This document shows, in pieces, positions 40,582 to 51,789 of a stretch of 63,063 nucleotides of DNA. This DNA comes from Lachnospiraceae bacterium. Its GTDB lineage: Bacteria; Bacillota; Clostridia; Lachnospirales; Lachnospiraceae. The stretch covers positions 1 to 63,063 of the forward strand of contig BLLW01000015.1 of the NCBI GenBank assembly GCA_011959285.1, given 5' to 3'. Below the pieces are notes generated by a model. The model made no database searches. It had not been told where the DNA came from and saw nothing but the letters and a program-made list of their open reading frames with translations. A program made the translations under genes and the position numbers. Every line of letters begins with the position of its first letter. Position 1 is the first letter of the stretch.

Positions 40582-41382
40582 ATGAAATCTAATTATTTGA
40601 AGAAATATATCATCAGTTCCTATATTCTGGTATGGGCGCTCATTATTTTTGTGGCAGGTACAGCAAGCCTTGTATTCCATGCGCCGCCCGTCATCATGTG
40701 GATTGTCCGCAACCTGATCGCATGGTCGCCAACGTATCTGCTTCTGATTGGCTGGAAACATTTCAGACCGGACGAAACGAGAATGAATTTCATAAAAAGG
40801 TGTTTTTCAGGCAAAATAAAACTTTTTCCGTTGTTATGTTCCTTTGCGCTTACGTTTGGAATCAGTGTTTTGGCGCTGTTCCTCTTTTCCGTCATCATGG
40901 GAACGCCGATGCTGTCTTATATCAATTTTGGAATAACGGCATTGCCACTCAGTATTTTCCTGTCCTTTACATCGGGACCGACAGGAGAAGAATTGGGATG
41001 GCGCGGCTTTATGCGGGAGGAATTTAACAAGAGATATGGTTTCTTAAAATCCTCTGTCTGTCAGGGTTTGGTATGGTGCTTCTGGCATACCTTGTTGTGG
41101 GCAGTGGATTCAGAATTTACCGACTGGAGGGCAGTCCCCTATGTCATTTCCAATATTGTTGTCATTACCTGCATGACCGTTTTGATGAACATTTTTTTGG
41201 AGTGGCATAATAATCTGATTTATTCGGTATTTCTGCACTTTGGATTTAATATCATTTATGTGTTTTTGGAGGCGGATATAGGGTTCTTTATAATCCTGAT
41301 AATCCTTTATCTGTTAATTACACCATTCGCTGTGCTTGCAAGGAACAGATTAGCGGGGAAACATAAAAAACAAAAAATTTAA
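40582..41382 (+). CDS. CPBP-family intramembrane metalloprotease
   Basis: About 266 residues with seven to eight membrane helices. The family motifs are intact: 'GPTGEELGWRGFM' (E-E-x-x-x-R), 'LVWCFWHTLLW' (F-x-x-x-H) and 'FLHFGFNII' (H-x-x-x-N). These Abi/CAAX-protease-like proteins cleave within the membrane or act in bacteriocin immunity. ATG 40582 has GGGAGAGGGG upstream. It follows an HTH/DUF4097 protein gene and precedes a broken response regulator gene, a partial bacteriocin-immunity-like context. Confidence 0.87.
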   Translation: MKSNYLKKYIISSYILVWALIIFVAGTASLVFHAPPVIMWIVRNLIAWSPTYLLLIGWKHFRPDETRMNFIKRCFSGKIKLFPLLCSFALTFGISVLALFLFSVIMGTPMLSYINFGITALPLSIFLSFTSGPTGEELGWRGFMREEFNKRYGFLKSSVCQGLVWCFWHTLLWAVDSEFTDWRAVPYVISNIVVITCMTVLMNIFLEWHNNLIYSVFLHFGFNIIYVFLEADIGFFIILIILYLLITPFAVLARNRLAGKHKKQKI

Positions 41383-41459
41383 TGTTCAGGTAATGTTCAG
41401 ATTGCATTCAGGTAATATTCGGGGTGTAAAATCGTAAAGACTGCTGTTTGAACATAAAT

Positions 41460-42029
41460 ATGGAAAGGAAGCGGGAGTATGGCAATATCCTGATTGCAGA
41501 TGATGACAAAGATATTATCAGAATGCTGCGGTTTTATCTTGAAAAAGAAGGATTTTAGATTTACGAAGCCTATGATGGGAATATGGCGTTTATGATTTTG
41601 CAGAATTATGGGATTGATGTTGCCCTTGTTGATATTATGATGCCGCATATGGACGGTTTTGACCTGATTCAGAAAGTGCGCCGGACAATGGATGTCCCCA
41701 TACTTGTCATTTCGGCAAAGGTTGATTTGTCTGACCGGATACGGGGTTTAGACCTTGGGGCGGATGATTATATCCTGAAACCGTTTGAACCGCTGGAAGT
41801 TGTTGCAAAAGTGAAAGCAAGGCTGCGCCGCCTGAATGCAGGACAGAACTGCATAACTGACGGAATGGTTTCATCAGGCGGTTTATTCTTAAACACCGGA
41901 GAGTGCTGTCTGATTAAGAACGGTGCAGACAGGTTTGATGATGCAGGCAGTATTACATTTGGCATCTTTTTGATAGCAATTTCTGTTGTTGTTCGCTACG
42001 GTGCGGAACGGGAGCAAGGGAGGAAATGA
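41460..42029 (+). pseudogene. OmpR-type response regulator, broken
   Basis: Receiver-domain sequence is clear ('ILIADDDKDIIRMLRFYLEKEGF', 'DVALVDIMMPHMDGFDLIQKVRR', 'LDLGADDYILKPFEPLEVVAKVKARLRRL'). However, a TAG at 41556-41558 interrupts it. The likely original start near 41478 (ATGGCAATATC) is one base short of an open MANIL-type frame. After about codon 160 the DNA-binding domain is replaced by an unrelated hydrophobic tail ('SITFGIFLIAISVVVRYGAE'), so the gene is both mutated and truncated. No kinase gene remains beside it. Confidence 0.85.
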
Positions 42030-42030
42030 A

Positions 42031-42351
42031 ATGAAAAATCAACAAGCTATGGAAAATAATAAAAAGGGTACTATTCTCACAATTATAGGTGTGGCAATAA
42101 TGATACTATTGACGGCAACAAAAGTTGTGCCGTCCTCAAATATTGCAAGTTATTCCGTGTTTGTTGGGATTGCGTTTTTCTTCATTGTGGAAGCGGTTTT
42201 CAAAACACCAAATGCCGAATCGGGGTTGCGTTTTAATACGATTGTGGAGGATATTAAAAAGTCGGGTGTAATCGCATGGGCATTGGTGCCATGCTTTAGT
42301 GGCATTGTAACGATTGTTGTGGGAAAATCGGAATTTGTGGAGGTGTATTAG
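42031..42351 (+). pseudogene. Truncated CPBP-type membrane protein
   Basis: 106 codons encode an N-terminal segment with three membrane helices ('GTILTIIGVAIMILLTATKVVPSSNIASYSVFVGIAFFFIVEAVFKTPNAESGLRFNTIVEDIKKSGVIAWALVP'). It resembles, from memory, the start of CPBP proteases, but stops before the catalytic E-E-x-x-x-R region. GGAGG precedes ATG 42031. Its stop TAG shares a base with the GTG start of the next gene. It may be a genuine short gene, but truncation is more likely. Confidence 0.55.
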
Positions 42352-42812
42352 TGGAGATTATAACTTTCAAATCTGATATGCAGCAATCGGTGGATGCTTT
42401 TTTTGAAAAATGTCTTACTGCCGTAGGCATACCATATTCGCCAATGGATAGACATGCTGATGTTGCTGATGTAGAACAATATTATATGCGAGATGGTTGC
42501 TTTTGGTGTCTATCTGATAATGGGGTTCTTATAGGAACAGTAGCAATACGAATAATTGATAATGAAAGTAAAGAGATTGAACTTAAACGTATGTTTGTGC
42601 TGCCTGAATATCAGGGCAGAGGCTATGGAAGATTACTTTTAGTACATGCTATAAATTATGCAAGAGAACAGAAGTATAAAAAAATTTATTTAGATACTAG
42701 AAAACAGTTTTCAGTAGCACAACACCTGTATCGAAGTAATGGATTTCAGAAAACTGAAAAGTATAACGACAATGAACATGCTGAATTATATTTTGAACTG
42801 GTTTTAAGCTAA
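42351..42812 (+). CDS. GNAT-family N-acetyltransferase
   Basis: 153 residues. 'GVLIGTVAIRIIDNESKEIELKRMFVLPEYQGRGYGRLLLVHAINYAREQKYKKIYLDTRKQFSVAQHLYRSNGFQKT' contains the complete acetyl-CoA core (Q-G-R-G-Y-G). The GTG start at 42351 overlaps the preceding stop by one base and uses the internal GTGGAGGTG site, so translation may be coupled. Substrate unknown. It lies just outside the presumed element end at 42849. Confidence 0.87.
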   Translation: MEIITFKSDMQQSVDAFFEKCLTAVGIPYSPMDRHADVADVEQYYMRDGCFWCLSDNGVLIGTVAIRIIDNESKEIELKRMFVLPEYQGRGYGRLLLVHAINYAREQKYKKIYLDTRKQFSVAQHLYRSNGFQKTEKYNDNEHAELYFELVLS

Positions 42813-42848
42813 ATATATAAATCGAAATTTGCAGTTGAATTTATAGAA

Positions 42849-42943
42849 CTTTCCCTTATTTTTCAAGGCTTTATAAGCCTCATACAGTGAATTGATATGT
42901 ATTTTCCCTTGTTTTTGCTCTTATGGGCAGTTTACAAGGGAAA
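42849..42943. repeat. Left end of a presumed integrative element: TTTCCCTT motifs
   Basis: TTTCCCTTATTTTT (42849-42862) recurs exactly at 49048-49061. TTTCCCTTGT (42903-42912) and its inverted copy ACAAGGGAAA (42934-42943) lie between this repeat and the integrase remnant. The pattern resembles core plus arm-type recombinase sites. Confidence 0.5.
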
Positions 42944-42960
42944 GTTTTTTCTAAATGTAT

Positions 42961-43671
42961 CTAATCGTTGCCTGCCACTTTATCTAAGAGCCTTGCGGAA
43001 GTCCGCTTTGCTTCCCTTGTGGCATGGGCATACACATTCATTGTGGTACTTACGTCAGAGTGTCCCAAGAGTTCCTGCACGTCCTTCGGTGCTGCACCGT
43101 TTGACAGCAGATTGCTTGTATAAGTATGGCGGAGCTGGTGGAAATGAAAACCCTCAAATCCGTCCAGTTTCTTTGCGAGTGTTCGGCAGACGATACTCAA
43201 TGTACTTGGCGTTTCAAGGCAACCATCCGGTCTTAAACATACAAATGAGATTTCGTTGTAATCCGCCGGAATATCCTGCGTGTTTTCCAAGCTGTAATAC
43301 TCATAGTAAACCCTGTTTTTATCCTGCACTTCCTTGTAGTAGTTGCGGTGGTACAGTTCCCCGTACTGCATCTGATTTTTAAGCTGTTCTTTCCTTGCCC
43401 TTTTCAGTATGGTGGTAAGTGTGTCCCCAAAATCTACCGTCCGCACTTTCTTACGTTTAGTCGGTCCGATAATCGTTTTGTGCTTTGCGCCGTCATAGCG
43501 GACGCTCCGCTTTACCGTAAGATACTGTTCCTCAAGGTTGATGTCCTGCCAAGTCAGCCCGCATACCTCGCCGATCCTAAGCCCTGCATAGTAGGCTATC
43601 TGTATCGGCAGAACCGCAGAGACATTTTTCTTTTCAAGATAAGCGATATTCGGCAGCCAGCCGGAACGTCT
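42961..43671 (-). pseudogene. Tyrosine integrase, catalytic C-terminal part only
   Basis: About 236 codons of a phage-type integrase. The catalytic Arg is in 'YYAGLRIGEVCGLTWQDI', H-x-x-R is in 'FHFHQLRHTYTSNLLSNG', the third His is in 'ELLGHSDVSTTMNVYAH' and the Tyr nucleophile is in that last motif. The N-terminal arm and core-binding domains are missing. At about 43672 the frame passes into DNA that, on the other strand, codes for a relaxase tail. Full-length members of the Tn916-like or related ICE family are about 380-400 residues. It lies at the left element end, reading toward it. Confidence 0.85.
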
Positions 43672-43684
43672 TGGAAGTATTATT

Positions 43685-44413
43685 ATGACCGCTGTTACGG
43701 CGTTGGCATTGCTGATTTCTAAAGTATTGGATAAGGCAAGGGAACTGTCAGCAAAGTTATTTGAGAAAGAAACGATACAGCCGGTTGCAGAGCCAAACGA
43801 GAGAAGAACGACACAAGTAATACCGCAGACTGATAAAATACCAATGCAGGAAAAAAACACTCATAAAGAACCGACTGCTAATCCATCATCACAGAAACAG
43901 GAGTTGCAGGCAAAAACACAGACAACAGAACAGGAAAAACCTAAAATTCCACCAAAGCCTGTTATGTCCGCTGAAGCCACCGCATATCCAAAGCTGCTGA
44001 AAATTTATAAGGAATTAAACCGCCAAAACGGAATTATCTTTGATGCGGAGAGGGAACGCAATGAGTTGGAACTGGAGCGTGACAGCCTGAAAGGATTTGC
44101 GAAATTGACAAAGAAGGGGGAACTGCAAAGCAGGATTGACTGTAAAAATGAGGAAATAGACCTTCTCAAAATTGGTTTGTCGGGGATAGTCAAGCGATAT
44201 GGATTCCAGACGGTGCATGATTTCTACAAAGTCTTTTCTGTCTCTAAAACTGCTAATGCCGAATATCGGGACAAGGTGGATAAATGGGAAGAACAATACG
44301 GGGAAAAAGTACAAAAGAAGGAAGAAAGCATACACAGACGGTTGCAGAATTATCAAAGGGAAATTTCAAACCAATATATGAAGCGAACTATCAAAAACAG
44401 AGAGGCGAGATAA
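43685..44413 (+). pseudogene. Relaxase/mobilization-protein C-terminal tail (second copy)
   Basis: 242 codons of highly charged helical sequence ('VLDKARELSAKLFEKETIQPV', 'YPKLLKIYKELNRQNGIIF', 'ERNELELERDSLKGFAKL', 'GIVKRYGFQTVHDFYKVF') match the tails of MobA-like relaxases of Firmicute conjugative elements. The relaxase domain with its His triad is absent. The first codons abut the integrase remnant on the opposite strand, so a deletion has joined two element parts. A related, shorter tail lies at 38115-38430. Confidence 0.72.
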
Positions 44414-44519
44414 TTATTCTCCCCTCTCTGGTAAAATTGTAGGGCAAATTTTTATGCTATTGCATTTTCGTGAACGAAACGGATTCCCTGATTTTAATGC
44501 TTGTTAAATTTCAATACAC

Positions 44520-44699
44520 CTATACTTCCTGTAATTGCATTTCTTGAATCTGTCTGTGTACTTCCATGCCTCGTTTATTATAATAATCCCGTCTTTCCTG
44601 CGGTGTCATGTCTTTTGTGATATTATAGTTATATTCCCTTATTTTGTGTATGTCCTCAATCGTAAAGTCCGGACTGATTATCAGTTTATCCATAGTCAT
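44520..44699 (-). CDS. Small antitoxin-like protein paired with the PIN protein
   Basis: 59 residues ('MTMDKLIISPDFTIEDIHKI', 'REYNYNITKDMTPQERRDYY', '...VHRQIQEMQLQEV'), charged and helical. ATG 44699 overlaps the PIN gene's stop in an ATGA arrangement (a second ATG is at 44693), so translation is coupled. Size, charge and position fit a VapB-like or other small antitoxin, but with the toxin gene first, the less common order. No known antitoxin domain is visible. Confidence 0.65.
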   Translation of the reverse strand: MTMDKLIISPDFTIEDIHKIREYNYNITKDMTPQERRDYYNKRGMEVHRQIQEMQLQEV

Positions 44700-45178
44700 A
44701 CCTCGCTTTCCAATAACATAGATGGATTGATAATTTCAACTGGTTTATAACCCCTTAGATTCGTGATAGCTCTTACTCCCCTGATGGTCTTAATATTAAC
44801 AATATGTTTAAAATTCCATGATATAATGCAGTCACAGCCATATATGACTGCGGCAGCGATATGCTGGCAGTCATCATAACTCTTTTTTGTCAAGATACCC
44901 ATATCAATAATCTGCTGAGCAACAGATGACATGGAATCCGTAATCTGGATAGGTGTATAATTTATTTGTTTCAAATATTGATACATCTGGCTTTTCTTTG
45001 GCTCTTTACAATCTGATATTTCCTCTAATGTGACAGTAGACAAATATACGTCATATTGTCCGGATTTAAACTTTTCCCACAATTTTCTCGTATCTGCCAT
45101 CTTTTCAGGAACATCTTCCTGCAGCAAATAGCTGATAACTGATGTGTCCAAGTAGACCTTAAGATTTTCCATAAGCAT
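44696..45178 (-). CDS. PIN-domain protein (VapC-like toxin candidate)
   Basis: 160 residues (or 158 from ATG 45172). The PIN fold is indicated by 'KVYLDTSVISYLLQED' at the N-terminus, 'VYLSTVTLEEISDC' with the second acidic site, 'KSYDDCQHIAAAVIYGCDCIISWNFKHIVN' with the third acid and the conserved W-N-F-K-H, and 'IRGVRAITNLRGYKPVEIINPSML'. PIN proteins are Mg-dependent ribonucleases. AAAGGAG precedes the start. It overlaps the small downstream gene by ATGA. A ribonuclease toxin role is inferred from this pairing. Confidence 0.85.
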   Translation of the reverse strand: MLMENLKVYLDTSVISYLLQEDVPEKMADTRKLWEKFKSGQYDVYLSTVTLEEISDCKEPKKSQMYQYLKQINYTPIQITDSMSSVAQQIIDMGILTKKSYDDCQHIAAAVIYGCDCIISWNFKHIVNIKTIRGVRAITNLRGYKPVEIINPSMLLESEV

Positions 45179-45416
45179 CTTACTCCTTTAACCTGTCTGT
45201 TTTTGGCTTTTATTAGACTTCCAGATTCGCCTTATAGTTTTATCGCCTTATATCATTGACATATGCTCCAATTCAAAAATAATGTATATTCATTTTCATA
45301 AATATTGTAACATTCATTTGCCGCTTTTGCAATCAGGTGAGTCCATTATTTCAGCATTATTGTTACAAATTTAAGCACACGTATTCACCACATTATTAAC
45401 GAAATTGTATGAGGCA

Positions 45417-46589
45417 TTATAAAGAGAGAATTTCCCCGTCCTTCAAATATAGTATCGGGCATTTTAATTCTAATTTTTTGAAAGCTTCCCCATTCTCTGT
45501 ATGGATGGGAACAATTCCTTTTTTGGGCAATACGGCATTGCAGATTATCTGTGTATCCGTCAATGTTGCATGACCGCTTGAATGTAAATACCGTATATTT
45601 CCTGTTTCTTCAAATGGCAGAACAAACTTGGAGAGTTCCGGCGAACGTCCATCTAAATATCCCTCCCACATGGAATAAATTAAAACTGCTTCCGGATACA
45701 TGGAAATAATTTTCAGGAAACTGTGGTTCGCCCGAACAGGCATGACAAATCCCCGTTCTCTTAATTTCAGGTTTTCTCCATAAACGAGAGCTTTATCAAA
45801 TTGATACCATCCTGAACCGGATTTTGCCGCAATTACATCTAAAAGGCTTTTCTGGTATTTATCGCATACGAAATACTTTCCTCTGGGGGTGGCATTATAA
45901 AAGGACGCTAAACGGTCAATATTCGTGGAAGCGCATAGCGCAAATACATATTTATGGGAACGTATTTCTTTGGAGATTTCCTTTTGTAATTCCAACTCTG
46001 ACATTGTTTGCAGGGTGTCTCTTGAAAGCTGGGTTCCCTCAATAATTAAAACGTCTATGCCCTGTGCATATTGGGACAATAATTTAGGCGTGGCTTTTCC
46101 ACGGAAACCATGCAGGCGAAAATCGCCCGTGTGCAGTATTCGTTTACCCTCCGCCTCAATTAGAAACATATAGGCATCGTAAGCAGAGTGGTCTGCAGGG
46201 ATTGGCGTAACTCTTATATCACCAACGGTTACCGGTTTTAAAGCAGTAAGTGGGCGAAGTCTGCCGGATATGCCTTTATAACTGTTTTGCACTCTTTCTG
46301 AAAAGGTTGTCAAAATATCAATAGCTGTCCCGCCCAAGAAGATTGGTATTGGTTCCATTATGCCAGAAATTAAGCCGATATGATCCCCATGATAATGAGT
46401 TAAAAACACGCCGTCAAAATCAGTCTTTCCGCAATTAAGACCGTCAATTTCAAGCGTGTCTATAGAGACATTTCCTTCTGCATCCGGCAATTCAGCCCCA
46501 AAATCAATCAAAATCCGTGTACTGTCCGTTCTTATTTCCGCAGCGCATCCACCGATTTGGCGCGTGCCGCGATGAATTATAATCTGCAT
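45417..46589 (-). CDS. RNase J-like beta-CASP MBL-fold hydrolase (fourth gene of the candidate system)
   Basis: 390 residues. The metallo-beta-lactamase core has 'VFLTHYHGDHIGLISG' (H-x-H-x-D-H), 'PADHSAYDAYMFLIEAEGKRILHTGDFRLHGFRG' and, after an inserted beta-CASP domain, 'IRYLHSSGHATLTDTQIICNAVLPKKGIVPIHTENGEAF'. The last block matches the H-x-S-G-H-A and P-x-H motifs of RNase J-type RNA/DNA exonucleases. It is shorter than RNase J (about 550) because the C-terminal dimer domain is missing. It overlaps the PD-(D/E)XK-like gene by 13 bases. A nuclease acting with the other three products is inferred. Confidence 0.85.
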   Translation of the reverse strand: MQIIIHRGTRQIGGCAAEIRTDSTRILIDFGAELPDAEGNVSIDTLEIDGLNCGKTDFDGVFLTHYHGDHIGLISGIMEPIPIFLGGTAIDILTTFSERVQNSYKGISGRLRPLTALKPVTVGDIRVTPIPADHSAYDAYMFLIEAEGKRILHTGDFRLHGFRGKATPKLLSQYAQGIDVLIIEGTQLSRDTLQTMSELELQKEISKEIRSHKYVFALCASTNIDRLASFYNATPRGKYFVCDKYQKSLLDVIAAKSGSGWYQFDKALVYGENLKLRERGFVMPVRANHSFLKIISMYPEAVLIYSMWEGYLDGRSPELSKFVLPFEETGNIRYLHSSGHATLTDTQIICNAVLPKKGIVPIHTENGEAFKKLELKCPILYLKDGEILSL

Positions 46590-47242
46590 ATTTGATACGC
46601 TTTCTCCCCTGTTTTCTCAAAACGGAAAACAGTGATATTTGCTTTTGTCAAAAGTTCTTTTATCTCCGGTGCTGCTTTTTCAAATTCAGCAGCCTGTTTC
46701 GTTCCCTCAAAAAATGCGATTGCCTTTACGTATTTTCCTGTCGGATATCCAATCGTATAAGTCATAATTTCCGCAATCATCCGAAGCAGTGTTTCCGTAT
46801 TTCCTTTATAAGGTTTCAGTTCCGTGGCATATTGTGTTTTCCCATCGCTGATAATTAAGTCAATTTCACCAATCCCTTTTCCGTAGAAATGTGCAGGAAC
46901 CTCATAATCTGTTATCCGGTAATTGCCAGTAATATCAAATCTGTCCGCAAAACCACATTCCCTGCATACATTCGGATTATGGTATTTTCCATTTCTGTAA
47001 TACAGGCATTTGCAGAACCGTTTTTCTGTGAACCGATTCCCTTTCAGTCCGTCACAGCGGTTATGCCCTCCCTCCTGATAAGTTCCATGTGAAGAATATA
47101 ATTCCGGATTTTCACAGCCAATAAGAATCTTTTTCAGAGCATCCCCTCCCATGTCGATGGCAATCAGCAATTCCTTTGCCAAAACAGTATATTCTTTTTT
47201 GGTTATCTTGTCTTTAAACAGTATTCGTTCTTCACTTGCCAT
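46577..47242 (-). CDS. PD-(D/E)XK nuclease-like protein (third gene of the candidate system)
   Basis: 221 residues, not matched to a named family. The stretch 'GKGIGEIDLIISDGKTQYATELKPYKGNTETLLRMIAEIMTY' has the E...D...E-x-K spacing and following helix of PD-(D/E)XK nucleases (E and D in GEIDLI, E-L-K in the next strand). The N-terminal half has Cys/His ('HNRCDGLKGN', 'CKCLYYRNGKYHNPNVCRECGF') that may bind zinc. AGGAG is 9 bases before ATG 47242. One base separates it from the gene before and it overlaps the gene after by 13 bases, so it is co-translated with both. Confidence 0.72.
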   Translation of the reverse strand: MASEERILFKDKITKKEYTVLAKELLIAIDMGGDALKKILIGCENPELYSSHGTYQEGGHNRCDGLKGNRFTEKRFCKCLYYRNGKYHNPNVCRECGFADRFDITGNYRITDYEVPAHFYGKGIGEIDLIISDGKTQYATELKPYKGNTETLLRMIAEIMTYTIGYPTGKYVKAIAFFEGTKQAAEFEKAAPEIKELLTKANITVFRFEKTGEKAYQICRL

Positions 47243-47243
47243 A

Positions 47244-47858
47244 TCAGTTTTCTCCTTTTTCTTTTTGGTACAGCAGCGCCTGCTGAAAGATGTTTGTTAC
47301 TGCATAATAATTGAGCAGGGCAGGATAATAATTTGCAGGATGATAGTAGTCAATCAGCCTTAACTGTTTTTTGATTTCTTCTTTGTCCGCAAGTGCATAT
47401 GCTTCTATTTCCCCATAGTCTGACGATGATTTCCCACCGCTCTTTTTCAGGTTTACTACTGCGATATGGTTGAACAGTTCTGTATGATGTTCGTAAATGC
47501 CAGGTGAATATTTTGCAATCCCGCTTTCGGTTGTATTTTGGATTCCGTAAGCCCATTCAATTACCCGTTTCCAGACAGAGGATGAGGGCTTTGCACGCAG
47601 TAACCATTCTGTCAGACTCCAATCCGCATCTTCCCCATAAGCCTCTTTTAATAGATACAAGATTTTCCTGCCAGTCTGATGATTCCAGACAGCTTCATTT
47701 ACGATCCCATCACTGATAAATACATTCTTATGATTAATTGAAACTGTCTTTTCCTGTTTTTTATCAACATAACTTCTTGTGACAGGCTCTTTTGTTTTCC
47801 ATAGCTCCAACAGTTCTCTCTCTGTTTTACAAACGGCGATGTTATCATAGTATCCCAT
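47244..47858 (-). CDS. Uracil-DNA-glycosylase-like uncharacterised protein (second gene of the candidate system)
   Basis: About 204 residues from ATG 47858, chosen because GGAGG lies 8 bases upstream. 'RKILYLLKEAYGEDADWSLTEWLL...SSVWKRVIEWAYGIQNT' and 'FNHIAVVNLKKSGGKSSSDYGEIEAYALADKEEIKKQLRLID' recall a family with a glycosylase-like fold, ending with an H-P motif 'YYHPANYYPALLNYYAV'. In relatives as I remember them, a 'P-D-I-I-V-C-G-x' strand and some 40-50 residues precede that end. Here 'LRLID' joins directly to 'YYHPAN', so an in-frame deletion is possible. Function unknown. Confidence 0.6.
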   Translation of the reverse strand: MGYYDNIAVCKTERELLELWKTKEPVTRSYVDKKQEKTVSINHKNVFISDGIVNEAVWNHQTGRKILYLLKEAYGEDADWSLTEWLLRAKPSSSVWKRVIEWAYGIQNTTESGIAKYSPGIYEHHTELFNHIAVVNLKKSGGKSSSDYGEIEAYALADKEEIKKQLRLIDYYHPANYYPALLNYYAVTNIFQQALLYQKEKGEN

Positions 47859-47880
47859 AAAAATTTCCTCCATTTTCTTA

Positions 47881-48465
47881 CTAATCACCCCAAAGGACAG
47901 ATTTCCCTTCCGTTAATTTCCATCCCCTCAAAGTTCTGTCATATTCAATCCATTCTCCCGCAACTCTTAATGTTTCAATATACCTTTGGACGGAACGCTT
48001 TGATATTTCCAGTCGTTTTGCAAGCTGTTCCGTTGTAGTACCCGGGTATAGGCGAATCTGGCTTAAAATCATAATGGCGTTCGCTAATGTGGCGCTGAAA
48101 GTCTCGTTTTTCCTGCTATTGCGGTAAGCTGACAAAAGGACATATTTCAGTTCTGATTGCAGCTTATCAAAACTTGAAAAAACTTTTATCCTGCCTTTTA
48201 ATTGTTTGGGAATCTCTGCATGTCCAACCAAAACAACTGTTTCCGAAGCCGGACCAACTTCAAGATAAAATTCCCACAACATTTCTAAATCATCAGCAGA
48301 TACCATCATAGTGTTAATAAATATTGCGTATGAATTGCAGGCAATGATGTCTGTAAAGCATTCTGTAGAAGTCAAATAGCTTTTTTTAGTTGGTAACAGC
48401 TTTCTTATGCATCCTTCTTCAAACTGCGTGAAACCGTATGAAAAAACATTATCCGTATGAATCAT
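47881..48465 (-). CDS. Receiver-like N-terminus plus HTH regulator (first gene of the candidate system)
   Basis: 194 residues. The first 120 residues resemble a degenerate receiver or Rossmann-like domain ('AIFINTMMVSADDLEMLWEFYLEVGPASETVVLVGHAEIPKQLKGRIKVFSSFDKLQSEL') without the phospho-acceptor set. The C-terminus is a winged HTH of the HTH_11/DeoR type ('ANAIMILSQIRLYPGTTTEQLAKRLEISKRSVQRYIETLRVAGEWIEYDRTLRGWKL'). GGAGG precedes ATG 48465. It heads the four-gene operon and probably controls it. Confidence 0.75.
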   Translation of the reverse strand: MIHTDNVFSYGFTQFEEGCIRKLLPTKKSYLTSTECFTDIIACNSYAIFINTMMVSADDLEMLWEFYLEVGPASETVVLVGHAEIPKQLKGRIKVFSSFDKLQSELKYVLLSAYRNSRKNETFSATLANAIMILSQIRLYPGTTTEQLAKRLEISKRSVQRYIETLRVAGEWIEYDRTLRGWKLTEGKSVLWGD

Positions 48466-48661
48466 CTTTCCACCTCCGCTGACACAATTTTAACACACCA
48501 CCACGCCAACAGTCTTGTATATTTGCCTAAAAAATCAATCTCCTGCTTTATCCTTTATTATACTGATATTAGTTTCTTTTTCAACAGTTGAAAGAAAGCT
48601 GTGAGATTAAAATATCTTTCGGCAAGCTTCAAGAGAAAATAGGATAGTTATGAGTAAAATC

Positions 48662-48695
48662 AGGACTGATTCTCATTGATATTAGAATCAGCCCT
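48662..48695 (-). terminator. Hairpin terminator after the DUF6061 gene
   Basis: AGGACTGATTCT (48662-48673) and AGAATCAGCCCT (48684-48695) pair with one mismatch. On the minus strand GATTTTACTC follows. It lies between the DUF6061 gene and the four-gene operon, so the operon has its own promoter. Confidence 0.6.
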
Positions 48696-48711
48696 GATTT
48701 ATTGAAAATTG

Positions 48712-48951
48712 TTACCACAATTCCAATGAATCCTCTGCATCCACCCACATCTGCATATTTCCTTCAAGATGCAATTTTGCATATTCAAGCGGTTCGTCTA
48801 TTGCCAGAGCATTTAGGGCACATTCAGAACATGGTGTAGTTTTTAACCCTTCTTCTGCTTTGTTGCAGTCTATCCGTAAAAAGTAGCCCGCATGGGTGTA
48901 TACGTCAATGCTGTTATGGTGGATATTGTATGTTGCGTAAATCATATTCAT
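48712..48951 (-). CDS. DUF6061-like small protein
   Basis: 79 residues ('MNMIYATYNIHHNSIDVYTH', 'AGYFLRIDCNKAEEGLKTTP', '..LALNALAIDEPLEYAKLHLEGNMQMWVDA'), which fits DUF6061 proteins as I recall them. These are common cargo of Firmicute conjugative elements and have unknown function. GAGGA lies 10 bases before ATG 48951. Its presence supports that 42.85-49.1 kb is element DNA. Confidence 0.65.
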   Translation of the reverse strand: MNMIYATYNIHHNSIDVYTHAGYFLRIDCNKAEEGLKTTPCSECALNALAIDEPLEYAKLHLEGNMQMWVDAEDSLELW

Positions 48952-49047
48952 TTTTTATCTGTCCTCTTTTCATTGATTTTTTGAAAGCATTTCAATCAGT
49001 TTACCAATTCCCGTATATTATGTGTTATAATGTTTTATGTGATTTTG

Positions 49048-49124
49048 TTTCCCTTATTTTTTCCCTTATCAGGGTTCGTAATGCCCTATGGGAAGATATA
49101 ACACAAGGGACACTTTAAGGGAAA
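49048..49124. repeat. Right end of a presumed integrative element: TTTCCCTT motifs
   Basis: TTTCCCTTATTTTT (49048-49061) repeats the left-end sequence. TTTCCCTTAT (49060-49069) overlaps it, and inverted forms ACAAGGGACA (49103-49112) and TTAAGGGAAA (49115-49124) follow. Confidence 0.5.
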
Positions 49125-49242
49125 GCTCATCTGCGATAAACTTAGTGTTTTTAAGGGTTAGTGAGGATTTTAATAATAAAATATAACAGCTAATATTACC
49201 CTTAAAAAACATCAAATCGCAATCGAAATTTGAGGTGACGAT

Positions 49243-49935
49243 ATGAAAAAATTAGGTTTAGTAGGTGGAATGGGAGTGGAATCAACAATTCCTTATTACC
49301 ATGATATTGTTTATGGGGTACAAAATAAAATTGGAAAGAAATTCTTTCCGAATATAACTATTGAAAGTGTAAATGTATTTGATGTTTTGGGGTTATGCAG
49401 CGAGCAAAAATATGACGAATTAACAGACTATTTAATGCAAGCGATTAAGAATCTTACAACAAGTGGAGCTGATTTTATAGCATTATCGGCAAATACGCCA
49501 CATATTGTATTTGACAGATTGCAAAATATATCAACGGTTCCATTAGTTAGTATTGTTGAAGCTACATGCAATGAAGCAATTCGCTTAAATAAGCATAAGC
49601 TGGGGTTGCTTGGAACGATTTTTACTATGACAGAAGATTTTTTTAAGAAGCCATTTTACAACAGCAATATTGAAATCATTACACCAACTGCGGAAGAAAT
49701 GGAATATATAAATTTAAAAATATCTTCCGAATTAGAATTTGGTGTCATAAAAGAAGAAACATTGCAGGGCTTTAAAAAAATAATAAAACGTATGCAGCAG
49801 GAAGATAGTATTGAAGCTGTAATATTAGGCTGTACAGAACTGCCTCTTTTACTTAATGACGAAGTAAGTCCTATTCCATGCTTAGACACCATGAAAATAC
49901 ATATACAGCTTTTAATTGATTTGATTGTTGAATAA
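49243..49935 (+). CDS. Aspartate/glutamate racemase-family protein
   Basis: 230 residues. 'KLGLVGGMGVESTIPYYHDIV' opens the fold. The second catalytic Cys is in 'AVILGCTELPLLL' near residue 198. The first site reads 'ALSANTPHIVFD', with Ala where the racemase Cys normally sits (C-N-T-x-H). Without the Cys pair, ordinary two-base racemisation is unlikely; a one-base or other activity is possible. GAGGTGACG precedes ATG 49243. It lies just outside the element's right end. Confidence 0.85.
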   Translation: MKKLGLVGGMGVESTIPYYHDIVYGVQNKIGKKFFPNITIESVNVFDVLGLCSEQKYDELTDYLMQAIKNLTTSGADFIALSANTPHIVFDRLQNISTVPLVSIVEATCNEAIRLNKHKLGLLGTIFTMTEDFFKKPFYNSNIEIITPTAEEMEYINLKISSELEFGVIKEETLQGFKKIIKRMQQEDSIEAVILGCTELPLLLNDEVSPIPCLDTMKIHIQLLIDLIVE

Positions 49936-49998
49936 GACAAATTTCCATTTGTCGAGAAGCAAGAATAAAGAGAAATCGGAATTTGGGAGAAAAGTATC

Positions 49999-50864
49999 GT
50001 GAAAAAGGGATTGAATTTTAGAACAATAGAAAGTCAAAAGGAATATTTTGTTGCATATGAAAAAGCTTTGAAACTTGTGTCCGTACCATTTAATGAAAAA
50101 TATATCACTACTTCATTTGGAGACAGCTATGTGCTTTGCGCAGGAAACGAGAAAAATCCGCCGCTAGTATTACTTCATGCAGCAAGCTGTGGTCCCCTAT
50201 CTGGTATAAAAATATATTGTTTTGGAGCAACTATTTTTGTGTTTATGCGATTGATTTGATAGGAGAATCCTCTAAAAGTATTCTCACAAAGAAAATGAAA
50301 ACACCACAGGATAATGCTATGTGGCTTGATGAAACTTTAGTCGGATTAGAATTGGATAAAGTATTTCTTTGCGGGCTTTCGATAGGTGGTTGGAACGCTG
50401 CAAATTATACCGGTTTTTATCCGAAGAAAGTAATAAAGCTAATTTTACTTAGTCCAGTTCAAACTCTTGCTAAAATGTATTTTTCATTTTTCTTTAAGAT
50501 AATGAAGATGGGATTTAGACCAACAAGAGAAAATGTTGAAAATTATATTGGGTGGGGAAGCGAAAAGGAGGAGTCGTTACCAAATAGTATTATCAAACTC
50601 TTTACAATTTCAGTTATGAACATGAATTCAAATGCCAGTTTTCCCAAATGGTTAAAAAAAGAGCATTTGCTGAATGTAACAATGCCTGTTCTTTTATTGT
50701 TAGGAGAAAATGAGTTTGCGTTTTCAATAAAAAGAGCGACAAAGCGTGCAAAATCCGTATTCCGTAATTTGGAATTACACATTGTAGAAGAAGCGTCCCA
50801 TTTACTTTGTGTGAGTAAGCCAGATAAGATTAACCATAAAGTATTAGAATTTTTGATGAAATAA
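49999..50864 (+). pseudogene. Alpha/beta hydrolase, frameshifted
   Basis: The N-terminus reads from GTG 49999 ('KKGLNFRTIESQKEYFVAYEKAL', 'NEKNPPLVLLHAASCG'). It leaves frame near 50193-50200, where one base appears to be missing. The remainder ('SPIWYKNILFWSNYFCVYAIDLIGESSKS', nucleophile elbow 'VFLCGLSIGGWNAANY', C-terminal His in 'IVEEASHLLCVSKPDKI') continues in another frame to 50864. All catalytic parts exist, so correction of one base would restore a protein of about 288 residues. Sequencing error or recent inactivation. Confidence 0.82.
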
Positions 50865-50956
50865 TTAACAATTCAGAAAATTCCCATTTATCGGGAAGAA
50901 AATAGAAGGGATATATTAAATGTCTGGAAGAAAGGAAAGTCAGGGAATTAAAGATT

Positions 50957-51409
50957 TTGCAGGCGCTTGACATTGATTATTATACAGTGAGTCAGGATAT
51001 GCAGGCTACAGAATTTTCAGAATTATTTGCCTCTGTAGGCTGGAGCTGCCCTACGCAAGAGCAGATGAACTTTGCCATCAGGAACAGCACAAAATCCTTT
51101 ATTGTACGCCATAAAGATAGGGCAGTGGCAACAATAAACTGGCTTGGTGATTATGGTATGCACTGGTTTATGAAGGAATTTATTGTAAGCAGGGAATTTC
51201 AAGGACAGATGATAGGAACTTTTCTCTATCGCTTTTCGGAGAATTTTATTAAAAGCACTTTGAAGGAAAACTGGAAGGTCTGCATAGACCTGAGAGCTTC
51301 CAAAGGGCAGGAGGGTTTTTACCGTAGTCTTGGCTTTCAAATAATGTCTGAAAATGAAACGGGCAGTGGGATGGAAAAGATGATAGGGGGGAATGATAGA
51401 TGGAGTTAA
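50957..51409 (+). CDS. GNAT-family acetyltransferase, start uncertain
   Basis: About 150 residues. 'RAVATINWLGDYGMHWFMKEFIVSREFQGQMIGTFLYRFSENFIK...GQEGFYRSLGFQIM' fits GNAT, with Q-G-Q-M-I-G as the CoA motif. The frame opens at TTG 50957 without a ribosome site. An ATG at 50920 with upstream sequence GAAGGG lies in another frame, so a 1-base indel near 50940 may have displaced the true N-terminus. Its stop overlaps the next gene by 10 bases. Confidence 0.65.
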   Translation: MQALDIDYYTVSQDMQATEFSELFASVGWSCPTQEQMNFAIRNSTKSFIVRHKDRAVATINWLGDYGMHWFMKEFIVSREFQGQMIGTFLYRFSENFIKSTLKENWKVCIDLRASKGQEGFYRSLGFQIMSENETGSGMEKMIGGNDRWS

Positions 51410-51759
51410 TTATGCAGCCTACTTTTTCAACGTGTGGACAGGCGTGTATTGCCATGATTGCAGGGAAAAGCGTTGAGGAAGTAATAAGGGATATGAAAAC
51501 AGATGGAGCTACAAGTATCGGTCAACTGATAGAAATACTTGATTTTTATGGCATCGGACACGCTGAAAGAAACAAACGGATTTCCAAGAAGAATCCTGTT
51601 CCCTACAAGTATTCGATTCTGACGGTTCATACAGATGCGGGGTATACGCATTGGACGCTGTTTTATGACAATAAGTATTATGATCCGGAGTTTGGATTAA
51701 TTGAGGGCGAATATACACATGGGAAAATCACATCATTTTTAGAAATATATACCAAGTAG
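51400..51759 (+). CDS. C39-like peptidase-fold protein
   Basis: 119 residues. The Cys site is in 'MQPTFSTCGQACIAMIAGKSVEEVIRDM' and the His site in 'DAGYTHWTLFYDNKYYDPEFG', with the Asp of the catalytic triad in 'YYDP'. This is the papain-like C39 layout of peptidases that cut double-glycine leader peptides, but without any ABC transporter part. GGGGGGAA precedes ATG 51400. It could be a small intracellular protease or a non-enzymatic relative. Confidence 0.78.
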   Translation: MELIMQPTFSTCGQACIAMIAGKSVEEVIRDMKTDGATSIGQLIEILDFYGIGHAERNKRISKKNPVPYKYSILTVHTDAGYTHWTLFYDNKYYDPEFGLIEGEYTHGKITSFLEIYTK

Positions 51760-51789
51760 AAAATTCAAATTTAGAAAATGAGAATTATT

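Follow-up and report, generated by a model that had tools for sequence, protein, structure and literature searches.

The 63,063-nt contig BLLW01000015.1 of a Lachnospiraceae bacterium (assembly GCA_011959285.1), the whole of which is referred to below as the window, carries four minus-strand open reading frames (ORFs) at 45417-48465 that form an operon in the order g1-g2-g3-g4. This report deals with that operon, and above all with the pair made up of its last two genes, which encode a likely PD-(D/E)XK-superfamily protein (g3) and a beta-CASP metallo-hydrolase (g4). The features of the operon are the following:

47881-48465, minus strand: g1, a regulator of 194 amino acids with a pseudo-receiver and a winged helix-turn-helix (HTH) part (HTH_11 1.6e-6, AlphaFold, Foldseek)
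47244-47858, minus strand: g2, a protein of the uracil-DNA glycosylase (UDG) superfamily with an internal in-frame gap, accessory, 204 amino acids from its ATG (hhalign)
46577-47242, minus strand: g3, a likely PD-(D/E)XK-superfamily protein of 221 amino acids with a cysteine-rich insert (conserved motif residues)
46814-46861, minus strand: the catalytic-type motif of g3, D128 ... E141-x-K143 (alignment of g3 relatives)
45417-46589, minus strand: g4, a beta-CASP metallo-hydrolase of 390 amino acids with an RNA-type motif C (Lactamase_B_2 1.7e-13, nine catalytic residues)
48557-48584, minus strand: a weak candidate promoter of g1, with 11 of 12 consensus matches (12 such sites against 11.4 expected from shuffles)

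The g1/g2, g2/g3 and g3/g4 junctions measure +22, +1 and -13 bases, and each junction has a purine-rich ribosome site, as judged by eye. The positions, junctions and ribosome sites agree with the original prediction, which had been made from the letters of this DNA without database searches. A promoter and terminator scan gave no excess over shuffled sequence. The operon is more than a chance arrangement, because Clostridium sp. chh4-2 (locus L004) has g1, g3 and g4 in this order too, with an identical 13-base g3/g4 overlap and without g2; the three proteins are 40, 57 and 44% identical, respectively, to those of the window. The g1-g3-g4 order is also kept in L067, which comes from another family of the phylum.

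The proteins of the operon

Pfam identifies g4 as a metallo-beta-lactamase (MBL). The HYHGDH and HSSGHA motifs on which the original prediction had based a beta-CASP hydrolase are present, and that identity is borne out by the catalytic residues and by the family profile. Nine catalytic positions (H65, H67, D69, H70, H134, D156, E184, H340 and H363) are kept in every row of a 34-row alignment that excludes the fragments L005 and L071. The same 34 rows all have the HxHxDH motif, the motif 3 His, the motif 4 Asp and the beta-CASP motifs A (D/E), B (His) and C (His/Val), and motif C is His, the RNA type, in 34 of 34. This residue is His in RNA-acting beta-CASP members and Val in DNA-acting ones (PMC3095777; this and the other PMC papers are cited from parts of their texts).

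The family profile of g4 is nearest to EF2904 (PDB 2az4, 8.5e-39), followed by RNase J (3.3e-30), and active-site residues, including the motif C His, are common to g4, EF2904, RNase J and aCPSF1. The nearest NCBIfam model is RNase J TIGR00649 (3.6e-15, below the curated cut-off). We considered whether g4 is an RNase J proper and rejected this, as it scores 55.4 bits on TIGR00649 against a cut-off of 400 and 53 on RNase J1 against 820. Unlike RNase J, which carries an extra C-terminal domain, g4 has no such domain, is only about 400 residues long, is tied to a PD-(D/E)XK partner and is patchily distributed. In profile searches it was present in 15 of 397 genomes of the family (threshold 1e-25) and in 8 of 299 of the phylum (threshold 1e-40), the window being counted both times. 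The host genome encodes a further protein elsewhere (G000 C13, 557 amino acids) that by eye is RNase J-like.

The g3 protein, like g2, is above no Pfam family cut-off. It had been described as PD-(D/E)XK-like from GEIDLIISDGKTQYATELK and clusters of Cys, which are all present, and the motif residues are kept in relatives; comparison of structures did not confirm the fold. Ten sequences of partners of the window type, g3 included, keep E73, Y113, P116, D128, L129, E141, K143, E158, T161 and Y162. D128 and E141-x-K143 are invariant in all ten, at positions that fit the predicted strands. An AlphaFold model made from four sequences has a pLDDT of 65, and residues 45-101 and 114-127 are unreliable; its ordered part is predicted to consist of strands 109-113, 129-132 and 137-143, helix 152-163 and strand 172-178, which is the order expected of a PD-(D/E)XK core. 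The top Foldseek matches of the model are to phospholipase D, with poor overlap, and the weak ones include FokI, Hjc, AF1548 and RPA0323 (UPF0102). A PDB profile search with the window-type partners gave UPF0102 at an insignificant E of 0.75. We consider the PD-(D/E)XK fold of g3 to be likely on the strength of its motifs.

Relatives of g3 are rare. With the window counted, they were found in 2 of 144 relatives (the second at only 8.9e-4) and in 3 of 397 family genomes (one at only 1.8e-4), and a search of genome contigs gave three g3 loci, one of which is L004. The viral contigs, plasmids and phages searched yielded no close g3 relative. Because g3 is too rare, g4 was chosen as the key for finding related loci. 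Some g3 genes have no g4 beside them. L003 (243-1913) has a lone g3 gene (62% identity) beside a convergent gene that by eye resembles an Mrr-type restriction enzyme. L024 (8400-12550) has a g3-family gene without g4; an integrase akin to that of the window is three ORFs away, and a g4 locus lies 30 kb off on the same contig.

The original prediction of g1 as a receiver-like HTH protein stands. The Foldseek matches of its AlphaFold model (pLDDT 80.5) are response regulators, with StyR (1yio, E 9e-4) the only one below 0.001, and its DNA-binding part is the HTH_11 match listed above. Homologues are present in L004, L040, L041 and L067. By alignment and model strands, the end of beta-3, where the phospho-acceptor belongs, has Asn51 in the window, and four of the five family members have Asn there and one has Ala. 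Since the phospho-acceptor Asp is thus replaced, g1 is a pseudo-receiver and probably not driven by a histidine kinase.

The g2 protein belongs to the UDG superfamily. A profile comparison by hhalign (77%, E 2e-5) matched it to UDGs of the family 4/5 type, with similarity extending over the HP motif as well as the core strand, and neither Ung nor the window-type partners were matched; the top hit of a PDB profile search was also a UDG (E 0.29). The window copy splits at 47349-47357 in the profile search, and model positions 173-216, about 44 core residues, are missing. All of the other 11 g2 matches at E 1e-20 or better span these positions (one of the 11 has two stops), and a residue-level alignment of three relatives shows the segment in each. 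It holds the core strand, NPDIIICG in the consensus. With these residues lacking, the g2 of the window is probably broken. The glycosylase-like label of the original prediction is supported at the level of the superfamily, and base removal as a recognition step is unlikely here because the core segment is absent.

Neither does g2 travel with g4. The g2 family was found in 27 of 394 family genomes and g4 in 15 of 397, with both present in two (the window genome and G470), where about one would be expected by chance. No g2 match was found in the compared stretches of L004, L040, L041 and L067; g2 lies close to g4 in L025 as well. Seven other g2 loci have no g4, g3 or partner match within three genes, and one of them has a WYL gene. 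Of the 26 other genomes with g2, seven regions were compared besides L025, as were two of the 18 plasmid records with g2-like matches; the viral contigs and phages searched held no close relative of the intact g2. The four genes had been predicted to act as one set, and we reject a fixed four-gene set, as g2 does not accompany g4 and no compared locus outside the window has all four.

One g2 locus has a setting of its own. In L123 (4133-8152), a g2-family gene lies between genes that by eye are ADP-ribosylglycohydrolase-like and macro-domain-like, and a second UDG-like gene is nearby. A role of this cluster in repair of bases or ADP-ribose, or in defence, is possible.

Recurrence and exchange of the g4 partner

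By partner we mean a protein beside g4 that has a PD-(D/E)XK signature and a length of about 200-430 residues. Such a partner adjoins g4 or is fused to it at 27 of 36 g4-family loci, 23 of which were recognized by a motif test and four (L031, L049, L066 and L074) by inspection and homology. The two are fused in L035, as a single protein of 929 residues. The 36 loci comprise 15 from the family scan, seven more from the phylum scan, eight from plasmids, four from IMG/VR, and L004 and L005, which were found through g3 and hence are not independent of the pairing. The plasmids are a sample of eight of the 15 records with g4-like matches; H6, H9, H11-H15 and five phage records (22-26% identity) are outside it. 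Also outside the 36 are the weak IMG/VR g4 matches L042-L046 and L077, the repeats L072, L073, L075 and L078, the loci L024 and L003, and the weak g3-scan matches L002/L038 (G025) and L007/L039 (G285).

The PD-(D/E)XK motif occurs in 23 of 70 genes adjacent to g4 versus 26 of 316 other genes, with a p of 5e-7 that is optimistic in that the motif pattern was composed after the partners had been seen. The test has other flaws; the match in L028 is on the wrong stretch, the true one being further along, and some of the control matches are real partners at least one gene away. A partner was found in 10 of the 15 family-scan loci (window included) and in six of the seven further phylum-scan loci. 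The pair spans Bacillota, Alphaproteobacteria and Betaproteobacteria. It is present on plasmids of the Pseudomonadota genera Cupriavidus, Ochrobactrum, Rhizobium, Sphingomonas and Cereibacter and, among other Bacillota loci, on a Butyrivibrio plasmid (L047). The sole Bacteroidota locus (L048, Prevotella) has g4 without a PD-(D/E)XK partner.

The partners themselves are diverse. Thirty-three of them form 10 sequence clusters at E 1e-3, and six clusters have two or more members. A second signature, hydrophobic-x-D-[YLMIF]-[EQ], precedes the catalytic Asp by 15-44 residues in 20 of the 33 rows and crosses the clusters. None of the 16 partner proteins scanned passes a Pfam cut-off. By profile comparison, types A11 and A12 are related (77%, E 2e-5), and A11 against A13 gives 5% and E 0.008; the window type is not significantly similar to A11 or A12, though the motifs align. 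PDB profile searches with A11 and A12 returned nothing useful.

Mapped on the g4 tree, the partner types of 24 rows imply at least 10 changes; six types by themselves require five, and none of 200 shuffles of the partner types was as low as 10 (mean 13.9). The tree was made by a quick method, and L036, a long branch, was omitted from a second tree. On starred branches, the sister g4 proteins of L068/L069, L023/L025 and L004/L065 have different partner types. The comparison with the shuffles and the sister pairs together imply that the partners partly follow the g4 tree and have partly been exchanged. Regulators also occur in several types: the g1 type at five loci (window, L004, L040, L041 and L067), WYL regulators at L023, L025, L047 and L048, and another HTH type at L026, L027, L028, L032 and L033. 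Regulator type (13 rows) changes three times on the g4 tree, and 0 of 200 shuffles were as low. The recurring unit is therefore g4 with a PD-(D/E)XK partner, often with an HTH or WYL regulator, and it is smaller than four genes.

At two plasmid loci, the end of g4 shares four bases with a metallophosphoesterase gene: L048 (9455-10024, Bacteroidota) and L055 (9215-9859, alphaproteobacterial).

A decayed mobile element and its neighbours

The operon and an adjacent PIN pair are the cargo of a decayed mobile element, and a mobile setting, as had been predicted, is supported by comparison with sister genomes. The features around the operon are as follows:

44696-45178, minus strand: PIN-domain toxin, a separate cargo (Pfam PIN_3 3.4e-6)
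44520-44699, minus strand: ORF of 59 residues that overlaps the end of the PIN gene, a likely antitoxin (ORF reading)
42961-43860, minus strand: truncated tyrosine integrase (Phage_integrase 1.7e-26)
43685-44413, plus strand: remnant of what we take to be a relaxase-like protein, whose DNA matches portions of longer ORFs at 84-85% identity (L128 and L130)
48712-48951, minus strand: DUF6061 gene, the recurrent other end of the element (PF19537 5.7e-12; 89-92% in L128 and L129)
42819-49231: decayed mobilisable element with a cargo slot at about 44.4-48.7 kb (sister-genome comparison)
41345-51783: variable island, whose flanks enclose other DNA in L131 (4.1 kb) and L132 (7.8 kb)

The flanks of the island (38.4-41.3 and 51.8-53.4 kb) were found in two sister genomes around other DNA. 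All or part of 42819-43648 recurs at 93-94% in three sister genomes, and the integrase gene in L130 is longer, with 385 amino acids. L128 shares the integrase (42.8-43.6 kb), the relaxase-like piece (43.6-44.3 kb) and the DUF6061 end (48.7-49.2 kb) at 94, 85 and 92%, and its cargo is an ORF that from its letters looks like an ABC-type transporter; in L129, the integrase and DUF6061 ends flank yet another cargo. The relaxase label is read from the letters, and a Pfam scan of this remnant gave no match. The element of the window is considered a remnant because its integrase and relaxase-like pieces lie directly against each other, whereas in L128 they are 1.7 kb apart. The operon had been called integrase-bounded, which is correct for one side, where the integrase is truncated; the other side has the DUF6061 gene instead. 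The PIN neighbour named in the same prediction is real, and the 59-residue ORF lies behind it.

Other g4 loci are mobile in different ways. Some are on plasmids, L074 and L076 are IMG/VR contigs, and in L041 (7992-13199) g4, a partner and a g1 homologue have a Tn916-type integrase (PF02920, 4e-18) in their vicinity. In L074 (2510-8283), the pair adjoins a gene of 1102 residues that by eye is tail-tape-measure-like, a usual place for prophage cargo. The neighbours at some g4 loci include McrBC, DUF262 proteins, restriction-modification genes and toxin-antitoxin genes. ADP-ribosylglycohydrolase genes (PF03747, 1e-27 to 8e-66) are beside g4 in L027 (6368-7330) and L032 (6416-8143), and another (PF03747) is beside decayed g3 and g4 pieces in L005 (3742-4767).

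What the pair may do

Our preferred reading, to which we would give neither more nor less than even weight, is that the operon is a putative new two-nuclease module directed against phages or plasmids, mobile and self-regulated. The g4 protein, as the conserved part, and g3, as the exchangeable part, would form a complex. The PD-(D/E)XK partner may recognise and cut the target, probably DNA, or may gate the complex, and the beta-CASP enzyme would break down nucleic acid, with RNA the likeliest substrate, thereby shutting down either the invader or the cell that it has infected. The g1 protein would repress or activate the operon independently of phosphorylation, and g2 would be a UDG-type accessory that is probably dead in the window copy. 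In favour of this reading are the recurrence of the pair, its fusion in L035, the kept catalytic residues, the exchange of partners, the mobile setting, and the McrBC, DUF262, restriction-modification and toxin-antitoxin neighbours at some loci. The wider proposal, which we hold a little less firmly, is that there exists an undescribed class of defence in which every system would be built on a conserved RNA-type beta-CASP nuclease, with the target chosen by an exchangeable PD-(D/E)XK partner; REC-like, WYL and other HTH regulators would control it, and plasmids, conjugative elements and prophages would have spread it over at least two phyla.

Several observations weigh against a defence module. 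Nine of the 36 g4 loci are partnerless (L005, L027, L030, L034, L036, L037, L048, L056 and L071), though L037 stops at a contig edge and L005 and L071 are broken. The g3 model found no Foldseek match in the PDB at E 0.001 or better. A Val-to-His swap in SNM1A left its choice of substrate unchanged (PMC7458816), and because of this the motif C His is only a lead to an RNA substrate. The PIN pair is the only likely defence neighbour noticed in the window. PADLOC-DB 2.0.0 (2023) had no match for g2, g3 or the scanned g4 and partner proteins, except a weak one of g4 to LmuA (0.0015). Finally, the pair is intermingled with DnaA-like genes at L023, at L025 and on the Butyrivibrio plasmid L047, the last of which also has dnaX.

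The last of these points would fit upkeep of an element. The beta-CASP enzyme might process or decay transcripts of the element, and the PD-(D/E)XK protein act on its DNA during replication or transfer or to control its copy number, with no role in defence. The RNA-type motif C in all g4 rows, the AAA-type genes that accompany the DnaA-like ones at the three loci just named, and the many loci on plasmids or elements are consistent with this. However, the pair of the window is in a cargo slot and that of L074 is near a phage tail-type gene, neither being in a core replication block, and at least 10 changes of partner type look more like an arms race than like housekeeping. We regard upkeep as a tentative second choice, well behind a defence module.

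Two genes with a tight overlap, regulated, mobile and in one case fused (L035) could also represent a pair of the toxin-antitoxin kind, consisting of a toxic enzyme and a second one that neutralises it, and kept for maintenance of the element. However, both proteins are large and have complete active-site motifs, and usual antitoxins are not known to be proteins of that kind, so this is improbable.

A system of all four genes, in which the glycosylase would act on modified bases, by flipping or removing them, and the two nucleases would complete the work, is slightly less probable still. In its favour, g2 is UDG-like and lies near g4 in L025 too, and Brig1, an enzyme of the UDG superfamily, is a proven immune effector (PMC11078745). 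The likeness of Brig1 to g2 is at the level of the superfamily, and Brig1 is also reported to have ADP-ribosylglycohydrolase neighbours like those beside some g2 and g4 genes (L123 by eye; L005, L027 and L032 by Pfam); it differs in that g2 is optional, gapped here and accessory. The lack of a g2 match in four compared stretches, the co-occurrence of g2 and g4 at about the level of chance, and the missing core strand of the window copy all argue against the four acting together. The least probable alternative is that the operon is dead cargo in this genome, as the gapped g2 and the truncated integrase and relaxase-like genes might suggest, since g1, g3 and g4 are full length, with family-conserved residues and tight junctions.

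A defence module of the proposed kind can be set beside systems in which MBL nucleases are already implicated. MBL nucleases occur with proteases in Hachiman, AVAST, Lamassu, DRT and canu loci (PMC12799240). Hachiman, AVAST, Lamassu and canu thus resemble the present pair in that an MBL-fold nuclease is repeatedly coupled to a second defence enzyme, but their nucleases resemble those of DNA uptake (ComEC type) and are paired with proteases, whereas here a beta-CASP enzyme is paired with PD-(D/E)XK. Cas14 of type VII CRISPR has the beta-CASP fold, and the g4 family profile matches it (8yhd, 1.6e-15); however, g4 scores only 24 bits on the Cas14 model, which has a cut-off of 800. Six window proteins gave only weak HTH matches to regulators among the CRISPR models of PADLOC, a comparison of proteins in which CRISPR arrays were not searched for.

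PD-(D/E)XK domains are present in 13 of 31 further validated systems of DefensePredictor, the main text of which, in the parts used, does not contain "MBL" or "lactamase"; its legend of predicted systems abbreviates UDG, HTH and REC, and these predictions may include something related (PMC13092281). The legend of a CoCoNuT figure includes an MBL-fold gene (PMC11090510). The pair described here does not appear in the parts used of the Brig1, MBL-protease, DefensePredictor and CoCoNuT papers, and a beta-CASP and PD-(D/E)XK pair is not named in the titles and abstract beginnings of the matches listed from the open-licence literature. PADLOC otherwise gave HTH-type matches for g1 and HTH or WYL matches for the regulator proteins, and membership in a named PADLOC system was rejected, as the core proteins have no specific match. 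The earlier statement that no named system has this gene set therefore holds within PADLOC-DB 2.0.0 and these portions of the open-licence literature.

If the pair is indeed a defence module, beta-CASP RNases, whose known roles lie mainly in RNA decay, in the 3' processing of mRNA and in type VII CRISPR, would join the stand-alone immune enzymes of bacteria, and the exchange of partners would provide a natural series from which target specificity could be read. The pair also gives a testable function to proteins that are labelled "MBL fold metallo-hydrolase" or "hypothetical protein" in the plasmid records compared.

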